Assembly (NCBI GenBank): GCA_913055615.1
Contig: CAJXKK010000029.1
Coordinates: 1 to 33,599, forward strand
Length of the DNA stretch: 33,599 nt
Direction: 5' to 3'
From: an uncultured Ectothiorhodospiraceae bacterium
GTDB taxonomy: Bacteria; Pseudomonadota; Gammaproteobacteria; XJ16; Halofilaceae
Below the pieces are notes generated by a model, which was not told the DNA's origin, ran no database searches, and saw only the letters and a program-made list of their open reading frames with translations. This document shows, piece after piece, positions 2,046 to 6,138 of this stretch. Made by a program: the position numbers and the translations under genes. Each line of letters starts with the position of its first letter. Position 1 is the first letter of the stretch.

Positions 2046-2774
2046 ATGAACATGCGCCTCGGTATTCTGCAGTGCGACTCCGTACGGCCCGAACTGCAAC
2101 CGGAGTTCGGTGATTATCCGGAAATGTTCCAGCATCTGCTCACGACAGAGGCCGTGCAGCCCGAATTCCGTGTGTACGACCTGACCCGGGGGGAATTCCC
2201 CGAATCGCCGGATGAGTGCGATGCGTGGCTGTTCACCGGCAGCAAGTGGAGCGTCTACGATCCGGATGAATGGATCGCCGACGCGCATGAATTCGCGCGT
2301 CGGCTGCACGCCGCGCGCCAACCGACCGTGGGGGTCTGTTTCGGTCACCAACTGATCAGCCGTGCACTCGGTGGGCGCGTGGAGAAGGCGCCGATCGGCT
2401 GGGGGGTCGGCGTGCACACGGCGGACATACTGCGGCATGAGCCCTGGATGCGACCGGATCGTGATTCGCTATCACTGCTCGTGAGCCACCAGGACCAGGT
2501 GATCAAGCCGCCTGAGGGGTCCGAACTGCTGGCCGGCCACGAGTTCTGTCCGCACGACATGTTGCGGATCGGTGATCACATCCTGACCTTCCAGGGGCAC
2601 CCGGAATTCGGGCCCGGCTACTCGCAGGCGACCATGGATATGCGCCGCGACACGCTTGGCGAGGATACCTATCGCGCCGGCGTCGCCTCGCTGGACACGG
2701 CCATCGATCCCGACGTCGCCGCCGCGTGGATCCACTCGTTTATCGCCCGCGCACGCGGAGAAACCGCTGACTGA
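2046..2774 (+). CDS. Class I glutamine amidotransferase-like protein
   Basis: This 242-residue stand-alone class I (triad) amidotransferase domain resembles the GMP-synthase-like GATase family. The nucleophile elbow is GVCFGHQ with Cys98. The His-Glu pair lies in GHPEF (His185, Glu187), so the catalytic triad is complete. Such proteins hydrolyse gamma-glutamyl amides; free-standing members act on glutamine or on gamma-glutamylated amines. It is divergent from the glutamine-synthetase-like gene with about 320 bases between their starts. A joint role in making and hydrolysing a gamma-glutamyl intermediate is a reasonable inference. A second ATG lies two codons downstream at 2052, so the exact start is uncertain. 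Confidence 0.8.
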   Translation: MNMRLGILQCDSVRPELQPEFGDYPEMFQHLLTTEAVQPEFRVYDLTRGEFPESPDECDAWLFTGSKWSVYDPDEWIADAHEFARRLHAARQPTVGVCFGHQLISRALGGRVEKAPIGWGVGVHTADILRHEPWMRPDRDSLSLLVSHQDQVIKPPEGSELLAGHEFCPHDMLRIGDHILTFQGHPEFGPGYSQATMDMRRDTLGEDTYRAGVASLDTAIDPDVAAAWIHSFIARARGETAD

Positions 2775-2854
2775 GTAGAGGATCGCCGCGTTGCGGCGGG
2801 CCTGACGGTCTCAGTAAAGAGGTTCTCGCCACGGCGCGGAGGGCGCCAACGGAC

Positions 2855-2880
2855 TGCAGGAGCGGCCTTGGCCGCGAACC
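2855..2880 (+). repeat. REP-like palindrome, copy 1
   Basis: The 26-base unit starts TGCAGGAGCG and ends CGCGAACC. Its core is a six-base stem GCGGCC with a TT loop and GGCCGC return. The unit resembles the GTAGGAGCGAGCTTGCTCGCG family of REP sequences known from pseudomonads and relatives. It is paired with an inverted copy at 2982-3007. Confidence 0.6.
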
Positions 2881-2981
2881 GGTCTCGGCGCCTTCGCGGT
2901 TCTCATTGGCTGAGCCGCACAACGTTGCTGACCAAGCCCGTTACCGGATCGATTGAACCGAGCCTCGCAGCAGCCGACGAC

Positions 2982-3007
2982 GGTTCGCGAGCAAGCTCGC
3001 TCCTACA
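2982..3007 (-). repeat. REP-like palindrome, copy 2 (inverted)
   Basis: Read on the minus strand this is TGTAGGAGCG, then the stem GCGAGC-TT-GCTCGC, then CGAACC. Relative to copy 1 it differs at one flanking base and at two stem positions on each side. The stem changes (GC/GC against AG/CT) are compensatory, so the hairpin is preserved. Confidence 0.6.
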
Positions 3008-3059
3008 ATGTTTCGCGTTCTTTGCGTCCCCTGGCGCCCTCGGCGCCTTGGCGAGAACC

Positions 3060-3269: not shown

Positions 3270-3389
3270 GTGGAAGATTCTCTTACTGCCGCAACCTGGT
3301 TCTGGTTGCTCGTGCCCATGCCGCTGTGCGTGCTGTTAGCGGTCATTACCTGGCTCCGCGAGCGCCCGGAGGGCCATTCCAATGAATGA
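3270..3389 (+). CDS. 39-residue membrane peptide overlapping putP
   Basis: A GTG-initiated frame of 39 codons encodes a single hydrophobic helix (about residues 8-28, rich in W, L, V, P and C). Acidic residues precede it and a basic/polar tail, WLRERPEGHSNE, follows. A TTGGAG ribosome-binding site lies 9-10 bases before the GTG. The frame overlaps the PutP start by eight bases, which suggests translational coupling. Very small accessory membrane peptides encoded just upstream of sodium:solute symporters are known in bacteria. That this is one of them is an inference from position, topology and RBS; I do not recognise the sequence. Confidence 0.6.
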   Translation: MEDSLTAATWFWLLVPMPLCVLLAVITWLRERPEGHSNE

Positions 3390-4872
3390 AGTCGCGATGA
3401 ACGTCCCCACGCTTACGACCTTCGCGGTCTATCTGCTCGCCATGCTCGGCCTCGGCGTACTCGCCTACCGGGCGACCAGCAATCTCTCCGACTACGTGCT
3501 CGGCGGCCGCAGCCTCGGCCCCGGGGTCGGTGCGCTGTCCGCCGGCGCGTCGGACATGAGTGGCTGGCTGCTGCTCGGCCTGCCCGGCGCGATCTACGCC
3601 TCCGGCATGAACCAGGTCTGGATCGGTATCGGCCTCACGGTCGGGGCCTATCTGAACTGGCAGTTCGTGGCGAAGCGCCTGCGTATCTATACCGAGGTGG
3701 CCAGTGACTCGATTACCGTGCCGGATTACCTTGAGAACCGCTTCGCCGACCACAGCAAGGTGCTCCGTGTCATCTCCGCGGCCGTGATCCTGCTGTTCTT
3801 CGCCTTCTATACCTCGTCCGGTCTGGTCGCCGGTGCGAAGCTGTTCGAGGCCAGTTTCGGCATGACCTATACGACGTCGCTCTGGGTCGGCGGTCTGGTA
3901 ATCATCTCCTATACATTCCTCGGCGGCTTCCTCGCGGTCTCCTGGACCGACTTCGTCCAGGGCATCCTGATGTTCGCCGCGCTCGTATTGATCCCCGCGA
4001 TCGCGATCAACCTGTTCGGCGGCGTCAGCGAGCTCGGCGGCTGGGGCGAGGCCGTGCAGCGCGTGGGCGAGATGGATGCTAGCCGCAACGACATCATGAG
4101 CGGCATGACCACCTTCAGCATCATCTCCCTGATGGCGTGGGGGCTCGGCTACTTCGGTCAGCCGCATATCATCGTCCGCTTCATGGCCCTGCGCTCCGCG
4201 GCGGACGTGCCGAAGGCCCGCCTGATCGGCATCACCTGGATGGTCGTCGCACTGTTCGGCTCCATCTTCACGGGCTATATCGGTTTCGCGTATTTCGCCG
4301 ACAACCCGCTGCCGGACGGCGAGAAGGTCTTCATCGCCCTGGCGACGACTCTCGCCAATCCCTGGGTGGCCGGTGCCCTGCTGGCGGCGATCCTCTCGGC
4401 GATCATGTCGACCATCGACTCGCAGCTGCTGGTCTCCTCGAGCGCGCTCGCCGAGGATATCTACAAGCCGTTCATCCGCCCGCAGGCGTCGCAGAACGAA
4501 CTCGTGTGGGTCGGGCGCCTGGCCGTGGTCGGCATCGCCGTGATCGCACTGCTGATCGCCAGCGATCCGGACGCCGGGGTACTTGCACTCGTGTCCTATG
4601 CGTGGGGTGGCTTCGGCGCCGCGTTCGGTCCGGTCATCATCCTGTCGCTGTTCTGGCGCGGCATGACCCGCAACGGTGCGTTGGCCGGCATCATCGTCGG
4701 TGCGGCGACGGTCGTGATCTGGAAGCAGCTCTCGGGCGGTATGTTCGACATGTACGAGATCCTGCCGGGCTTCATCCTCTGCGCCATCGCGATCGTGGTG
4801 GTCAGCAAGATGGGCCAGCCGGAGCGGTCGGTGACCGAAGAGTTCGACAAGGCCGCGAAGCAGTGGACCTGA
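3382..4872 (+). CDS. putP: Sodium/proline symporter
   Basis: This 496-residue integral membrane protein of the sodium:solute symporter (SSS) family imports L-proline with Na+ across the inner membrane. It shows the family-wide hydrophobic segments (about 13). It also has characteristic stretches such as DYVLGGRSLGPGVGALSAGA near the N-terminus, SDMSGWLLLGLPG in helix II, and SAIMSTIDSQLLVSSSALAEDIY around residues 335-357. The length is normal for PutP. GGAGGG lies eight bases before the ATG at 3382; a second ATG at 3397 is possible. It follows and overlaps the small membrane peptide and ends just before a strong terminator. Proline uptake fits osmoprotection in a salt-adapted organism or use as nutrient; no proline dehydrogenase is present here. 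Confidence 0.93.
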   Translation: MNEVAMNVPTLTTFAVYLLAMLGLGVLAYRATSNLSDYVLGGRSLGPGVGALSAGASDMSGWLLLGLPGAIYASGMNQVWIGIGLTVGAYLNWQFVAKRLRIYTEVASDSITVPDYLENRFADHSKVLRVISAAVILLFFAFYTSSGLVAGAKLFEASFGMTYTTSLWVGGLVIISYTFLGGFLAVSWTDFVQGILMFAALVLIPAIAINLFGGVSELGGWGEAVQRVGEMDASRNDIMSGMTTFSIISLMAWGLGYFGQPHIIVRFMALRSAADVPKARLIGITWMVVALFGSIFTGYIGFAYFADNPLPDGEKVFIALATTLANPWVAGALLAAILSAIMSTIDSQLLVSSSALAEDIYKPFIRPQASQNELVWVGRLAVVGIAVIALLIASDPDAGVLALVSYAWGGFGAAFGPVIILSLFWRGMTRNGALAGIIVGAATVVIWKQLSGGMFDMYEILPGFILCAIAIVVVSKMGQPERSVTEEFDKAAKQWT

Positions 4873-5130: not shown

Positions 5131-6138
5131 ATGGATTCTCTGAGTCAGGCGGCGCTCGGCGCCGCGGTCGGCGGTGCGGTGATGGGGCGCCGGGCGGGCT
5201 GGCGCGCGTTCGCGATCGGGGCCGGTGTGGGCACCCTGCCGGATCTCGACAGTTTCGTCCCGTTCGGCGGCGCGGTGGCCGATTTCACCTATCATCGCGG
5301 CTATACGCACGCCCTTTTCGTGCAGACGCTGGCCGCGCCGCTGATCGCCTGGCCGATCGGGCACTGGCGCCAGCGCCACGGTGAGTCGTATCGCCGCTGG
5401 CTGCTCGCGGTCTGGCTGATCCTGATCACGCATGCCCTGCTGGATGCCGTGACGATCTACGGCACGCAGCTGTGGCTGCCGTTCAGCGATTACCCGGTGG
5501 GGCTGGGCAGCGTGTTCATCATCGATCCGCTCTATACGCTGGCGTTGTTGATCGGGATTGGCGTGGCCGCGGCCAATCCTTGGCGGCGCGGTCGCTGGAA
5601 CAGCGTGGGGCTGGCCGTATCAACCGCCTACCTCGCCTGGGCGCTCGTCGCGCAGCAGGTGGTGGAGCAACGGGCCGAGGCCGCCCTCGCCCGCGCGGGG
5701 CTCCCGGTCGAGCGACTGCTGGCGACGCCGGCACCATTCAACACCCTGCTGTGGCGCGTGGTGGCGGTCGGTGAAGATGCGCACTGGGAGGGCTTCTATA
5801 CGGTGGGCTCGGGCAGGGCGATCGATTTCAATCGCTACCCGAATTCACCGGACCTGCTCGACGGCATCGAGGATGCCTGGGCGGTCCAGCGCCTGCAGTA
5901 TTTCACCAAGGGGTTTTACGCGGTCAACGAGCGCGAAGGCTCGGTGGTCATGACCGATCTGCGCATGGGGCAGGCCCGGTTCTACGCCTTCGGCTTCCGC
6001 GTGGGACAACGAAAGGACGGCCGCACGATCGCGCGCGAAGATGCGCGTTACGAGTACCCGCGTCCGCCGATGACCACGGTATTCCGGGAGCTTTATGCCT
6101 GCGGCCGCGACCGCTCGACCGAGGTTATCGACTGCTGA
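5131..6138 (+). CDS. YdjM-family membrane-bound metal-dependent hydrolase
   Basis: This 335-residue protein begins MDSLSQAALGAAVGGAV, the characteristic start of the YdjM/DUF457 family of inner-membrane proteins annotated as metal-dependent hydrolases. Conserved features are GTLPDLDSF (about 33-41), with Asp residues, and the HRGYTHAL motif (about 55-62). Histidine and aspartate occur again in HALLDAVTIYG (about 97-107). Several hydrophobic segments follow (residues about 65-80, 90-105, 125-150, 155-175). The C-terminal 160 residues are soluble and of unknown role. The substrate is unknown for the family; the E. coli member is SOS-regulated. The gene is followed head-on by the pbpG-like gene. 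Confidence 0.8.
   Translation: MDSLSQAALGAAVGGAVMGRRAGWRAFAIGAGVGTLPDLDSFVPFGGAVADFTYHRGYTHALFVQTLAAPLIAWPIGHWRQRHGESYRRWLLAVWLILITHALLDAVTIYGTQLWLPFSDYPVGLGSVFIIDPLYTLALLIGIGVAAANPWRRGRWNSVGLAVSTAYLAWALVAQQVVEQRAEAALARAGLPVERLLATPAPFNTLLWRVVAVGEDAHWEGFYTVGSGRAIDFNRYPNSPDLLDGIEDAWAVQRLQYFTKGFYAVNEREGSVVMTDLRMGQARFYAFGFRVGQRKDGRTIAREDARYEYPRPPMTTVFRELYACGRDRSTEVIDC

Follow-up and report, generated by a model that had tools for sequence, protein, structure and literature searches.

A GTAG-type REPIN with a RAYT in the genome, nested in inverted arrays that probably bound non-autonomous GxxExxY-type elements

Introduction

Bacterial genomes commonly carry REP sequences and further palindromic repeats; to our knowledge, the source of those that are not REPs is often obscure. 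The nuclease gene GxxExxY, which enters the analysis below, is poorly studied.

Several described structures resemble the locus presented here. GI doublets, as given in PMC3116915, consist of conserved 16-mers with 71 bp between them, compared with about 100 nt between the REPs of our locus. In A. variabilis (GTAG-15) and H. neapolitanus (CGTC-1), REP dimers were reported to be inserted within long palindromes; reportedly, none of these palindromes turned up without REPs, and no gene was associated with them (PMC3733652). Nesting as such is therefore not new.

The DNA analyzed ("the window") is a stretch of 33,599 nucleotides from an uncultured Ectothiorhodospiraceae bacterium (contig CAJXKK010000029.1), in which a nested inverted-repeat element occupies positions 2821-3059. 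We compared it with the rest of its own genome (G000; 3.0 Mb, 87 contigs), with a sister species (G002) and with a second congener (G001).

Results

Anatomy and copies of the nested element

The element and its neighbours are arranged as follows:

2046..2774, plus strand: upstream neighbour, open frame of 242 aa, with an orthologue in G002
2821..2854, plus strand: left-hand outer arm of the frame (a "B" arm), an array of degenerate 8-10-nt units (profile match 2822-2854)
2856..2880, plus strand: left REP, GCAG-tagged variant, stem GCGGCC/GGCCGC, GCAGGAGCGGCCTTGGCCGCGAACC
2881..2981, no strand: REPIN spacer of ~100 nt, missing at the orthologous site in G002
2982..3006, minus strand: right REP, GTAG-tagged with outward-facing tag, stem GCGAGC/GCTCGC, GTAGGAGCGAGCTTGCTCGCGAACC (minus strand)
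3019..3059, minus strand: right outer B arm, an inverted copy; 42 nt match copies elsewhere
3382..4872, plus strand: downstream neighbour, open frame of 496 aa

As judged by reading their sequences alone, the upstream neighbour is presumably glutamine amidotransferase-like and the downstream one sodium/solute symporter-like. The left B arm is truncated on its inner side. The outer 27-base inverted arms described in the initial annotation of this DNA indeed match at 25 of 27 positions (2821-2847 and 3033-3059), and at 30 of 34 when extended to 2821-2854 and 3026-3059. Its two inner inverted REPs with compensatory stem changes were likewise borne out: the two window stems differ by two paired changes, and both variable pairs are kept in 80 of the 81 REP copies fetched from G000. 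The two REPs are inverted tagged hairpins with outward tags, as in a REPIN, the left tag being GCAG. The annotation had suggested an RNA fold prediction; folded as single-stranded DNA, the element reached -79.1 kcal/mol versus -52.2 for shuffles (z -7.84), and 0 of 200 shuffles were as good. The anatomy of the nested structure is firm. A scan of the window against Rfam gave 0 matches at gathering score. Reading the frame as a terminator or promoter was rejected, as there is no T-run terminator there; two weak sites lie downstream (3155 and 3217).

The element is not confined to the window. We found at least 92 matches at E<=0.001 in G000 (40 of 155 first-look candidates were scored) and 161 REPs at <=2 mismatches, with 0 for the reversed control pattern. 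The search for other copies proposed in the initial annotation therefore returned a multi-copy element with many REPs, and not a single copy without REPs elsewhere in the genome. Among the REP copies fetched from G000, the variable pairs occur in three paired variants, with 37, 35 and 8 copies. There are many element copies in the sister species and few in the second congener. The copy at C3:45912 has a spacer ~84% like that of the window, inverted relative to it.

The inner part is a REPIN with a RAYT in the genome

Five Y1 transposase matches were found in G000. The protein encoded at C61:3611-4084 is a REP-associated tyrosine transposase (NCBIfam NF047646; 142.6 bits, cut-off 80), and its gene is flanked by the window-type REP, inverted and 26/26 identical. 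Because this RAYT is flanked by the identical inverted REP, we conclude that the inner part of the element is a REPIN of GTAG-type REPs with its RAYT in the genome, and this RAYT would be expected to mobilise the window-type REPIN. The RAYT locus is missing at the orthologous place in G002. Three further Y1 genes are flanked by other REP types (GTAGCCCGGATG..., GTAGGCCGG...), and at the fifth match a comparison of one flank with the other showed no REP. Around the Y1 transposase-family match at C8:5113-5436 (L021) there are no GTAG REPs; short inverted CGGGATCAGAGTAAAAAC repeats are present instead.

One REPIN spacer family occurs both within frames (L134, L128) and outside them (L271), which suggests that the REPIN can move apart from the frame. 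The L271 spacer is 87% identical to that of L134, and the homology stops within a few bases of the REPs. Among the exact REPs of G000, 31 of 62 have a B arm no more than 70 nt away on their GTAG side (profile E <0.05 for 28, and weak for 3, E 0.065-0.35), and 31 of 62 have none.

The initial annotation had suggested that all 239 bases might be a MITE or REPIN mobilised by a RAYT. The RAYT it had proposed to look for exists, flanked by the same REP, and the idea holds for the inner part. It does not extend to the whole element, since the outer arms are a separate family found without the REPIN, and the REPIN is found without them. As B arms and REPINs each occur without the other, the RAYT accounts for the inner doll and not for the outer one. 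We accordingly regard it as quite unlikely that a RAYT mobilises all 239 bases as a single unit, a long REPIN with B arms in its ends. Such a unit would explain why the window and the C3:45912 copy are similar throughout (B arms 0.85 and 0.86, middle 0.86), and some B-to-REP linkers are common to several copies, so that frame and REPIN may also travel together. It was already disfavoured by the separate occurrence of arms and REPINs; moreover, the REPs flanking the C61 RAYT have no B arms, and B arms are also found around other REP types and around a GxxExxY gene.

The outer arms form frames of their own

The B arms are inverted arrays, ~40 nt long, of degenerate 8-10-nt units such as CGCCAAGG or CGCGAAGG. 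They carry no GTAG and are not REPs. That they are REPs of another RAYT was considered and dropped: the GTAG tag is missing, and in a two-flank comparison they were not the shared flanking repeat at any of the five Y1 matches. A solo frame of 111 nt without a REPIN is present at L055, and B frames also enclose other REP types. At some loci, a frame of one flavour encloses a frame of another (L039 and L049; L280-L282 against L106). In the class Gammaproteobacteria, the B-arm pattern was found in 26 of 369 genomes, often as inverted pairs, with 0 for the reversed control.

Further arrangements were seen at single loci. L039:515-859 has three layers, with CAGAGG-flavour arms enclosing CCAAGG-flavour arms, which enclose a REPIN. 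Bare tandem heptamer arrays (GTTCGCC, GGGCCAA) lie beside REPs and within nested frames at L040:4245-4290 and L106:17300-17480.

Arms persist at orthologous sites with changed interiors

At the orthologous site of the window in G002, the B arms (0.91 and 0.81 identity) and the flanks (0.83, 0.93) are kept, and the middle is different, with no REPIN and no REP. The G002 spacer is only 21 nt after trimming, so the verdict for this pair rests on separate site comparisons. We compared 17 pairs of orthologous frames, hand-chosen from BLAST where both species had a frame, with approximate coordinates for a few (L153, L118 second site). The spacer was directly homologous in 7, borderline in 1, inverted in 3 (0.71-0.86 identity in the aligned part) and unrelated in 6. 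At L119/L100, the B-to-REP linkers and outer REP parts were kept and everything between was exchanged; at L137/L160, the arms at one site differ in flavour between the species. These nests are dynamic: the arms stay as the middle is swapped or flipped, so that members of one genus can differ in an intergenic hairpin, with the neighbouring genes unchanged.

It is very improbable that the interiors differ merely because unconstrained intergenic DNA has diverged past recognition. One 60-nt flank is indeed near the random level at some sites (0.49-0.59; random mean 0.46). At the window site, however, the middle shares nothing between flanks as well conserved as those given above, and the three inverted interiors are still alignable. 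Inverted interiors would rather fit the two inverted arms recombining or serving as sites of template switching; exchanged interiors would fit the copying of one dispersed copy into another, or successive rounds of insertion and loss. No target-site duplication or clean empty site was seen among the sites compared, where two 22-nt hairpin remnants were found. This hairpin, GGTTCTCGCCAAGGCGCGAACC, is present in G000 where G002 has a frame, twice independently (L119 ~5141-5165, L151 ~2305-2327).

The outer arms are linked to GxxExxY nuclease genes

A GxxExxY gene with arms of the window flavour is located in G000 at C5:74917-75258. Its arms were recognised at E 6e-8 and 2e-7 by a frame profile built from gene-less frames, with the C5 arms not among the input. 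The terminal inverted arrays of the window frame therefore share their flavour with those around a GxxExxY gene of its own genome. The second GxxExxY gene of G000 (C6:15829) has arms of another flavour. In G312, a B frame holds an intact 133-aa open frame for a GxxExxY protein (TIGR04256, PF13366 PDDEXK_3), and in G086 a B frame holds a decayed piece of one (the same two families).

In the search across the class, GxxExxY was present in 62 of 369 genomes. Flanking inverted arrays (p<=0.01, mononucleotide shuffles as null) were detected at 28 of 30 gammaproteobacterial GxxExxY loci, these being the best-scoring ones and not a random draw; among random segments taken from the same DNA, 4 of 120 had them. 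Of 20 further hand-picked loci, 18 were testable and 16 had a flanking array. For the 42 of 49 loci with a detectable array, arm composition correlated with protein distance between host families (Mantel r 0.26, 0/5000 permutations, 835 pairs), and the arm flavour of the window is common to a group of GxxExxY proteins whose hosts belong to at least four families. This covariation is no proof of recognition, since joint inheritance of gene and arms would yield it too; it could be plain joint inheritance.

The B pattern and GxxExxY also co-occur: the gene was found in 15 of 26 B-positive and 47 of 343 B-negative genomes (p 9e-7), and in 12 of 23 versus 47 of 343 when the own genus was left out (p 4e-5). 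Counting against the link, 11 of the 26 B-positive genomes have no GxxExxY match; G057 and G266 are B-rich (32 and 23 B sites) yet have none. In addition, only 2 of 76 frames in G000/G002 loci hold the gene, and these are the orthologous pair L208 and L210. There is no GxxExxY gene or remnant in the window frame, which can thus be at most a non-autonomous derivative. No credible remnant was found in other G000/G002 frames; a weak match at L147 is 30% identical with gaps.

In a different view of their origin, the frames would be palindromes that the host maintains, such as transcription terminators or sites bound by proteins, and mobile elements including GxxExxY genes would insert into them by chance. 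The persistence of frames at orthologous sites with changing interiors would be expected in that case, and the reported REP dimers within long palindromes agree with it (PMC3733652). We nevertheless consider it unlikely, given the patchy spread of the pattern over the class, the tracking of the GxxExxY tree by arm sequence across host families, the flavour difference at L137/L160 and the lack of a T-run terminator in the window frame. We conclude from the sequence comparisons that the outer arms, a separate repeat family, probably bound a non-autonomous element and are likely of the GxxExxY type.

The closest named relatives of the G000 GxxExxY protein, with the records of its own genome excluded, come from Wenzhouxiangella MAGs (66%). 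The G000 protein is 129 aa long, and D67, E77 and K79 are its predicted catalytic residues. At two Wenzhouxiangella loci, the array test failed though several B arms surround the gene; in L258:400-1110 and L259:400-1165, the GxxExxY gene lies amid several B-type arms, frame beside frame. For a GxxExxY protein, single-sequence structure prediction did not succeed (mean pLDDT 40.4), and no credible relative was found among solved structures (best E 1.4). Three scans of viral contigs turned up no close GxxExxY relatives, and anti-phage defence models did not match any of three GxxExxY proteins.

Genes for a four-helix-bundle protein (TIGR02436) in other gammaproteobacteria (L228-L257) are also flanked by inverted arrays, in 27 of 30 loci; gene ends were guessed at six of the 30 (L229, L237, L239, L246, L252, L256). 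These arrays consist of tandem units, mostly heptamers (e.g., AGGGAGT, GTGAGGG), in parallel to GxxExxY.

Discussion

We consider it fairly probable that the element consists of two nested mobile repeats, a non-autonomous GxxExxY-type frame having served as a landing site for RAYT-mobilised REPINs. In this scheme, the GxxExxY nuclease, encoded once in the window flavour (C5:74917-75258), would be the candidate trans-acting enzyme, and its action on the arms may have spread the gene-less frames. The RAYT at C61:3611-4084 would mobilise the GTAG REPIN, and REPINs of the window type and of other REP families would land at the centre of frames, probably since a single-stranded palindrome, once folded, presents its hairpin loop. 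The arms would then persist. The simplest way for interiors to be exchanged or flipped would be recombination or template switching, with the inverted arms and the dispersed copies as partners.

Should the outer arms prove to be the termini of GxxExxY elements, a single family of small nucleases would explain a class of dispersed repeats; the link is directly testable. More tentatively, and as a possibility we would hold at somewhat less than even, GxxExxY genes with inverted unit arrays may be a widespread, undescribed minimal selfish element: a ~125-aa PD-(D/E)XK protein would recognise tandem 8-10-nt units and spread gene-less frames in trans, and these frames would be landing pads with swapped or flipped interiors. 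The four-helix-bundle genes with their heptamer arrays would then be a parallel class.

Our searches of open-licence PMC papers turned up no account of GxxExxY genes being flanked by inverted arrays, nor of a gene for the outer palindrome of such nests. The window frame resembles MITEs in being short, non-coding and multi-copy with terminal inverted repeats, and differs from them in that small units arranged in arrays make up its arms and that we saw no target-site duplication. With GxxExxY genes (TIGR04256 / PF13366 PDDEXK_3), it shares arms of the flavour that flanks the gene in G000, the window copy being without the gene. With REPINs and GTAG REPs as described (PMC3116915, PMC3733652), it has in common the inverted pair of GTAG-tagged hairpins with outward tags, the compensatory stems and a RAYT flanked by the same REP; unlike these, the window REPIN is enclosed by a further palindrome, which belongs to a different family. 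Closest are the GTAG-15 and CGTC-1 cases, where a REP dimer likewise lies in the middle of a palindrome; in contrast to what was reported there (PMC3733652), the frames described here are also found empty of REPs, can contain any of several REP families, and resemble the ends of a nuclease gene.
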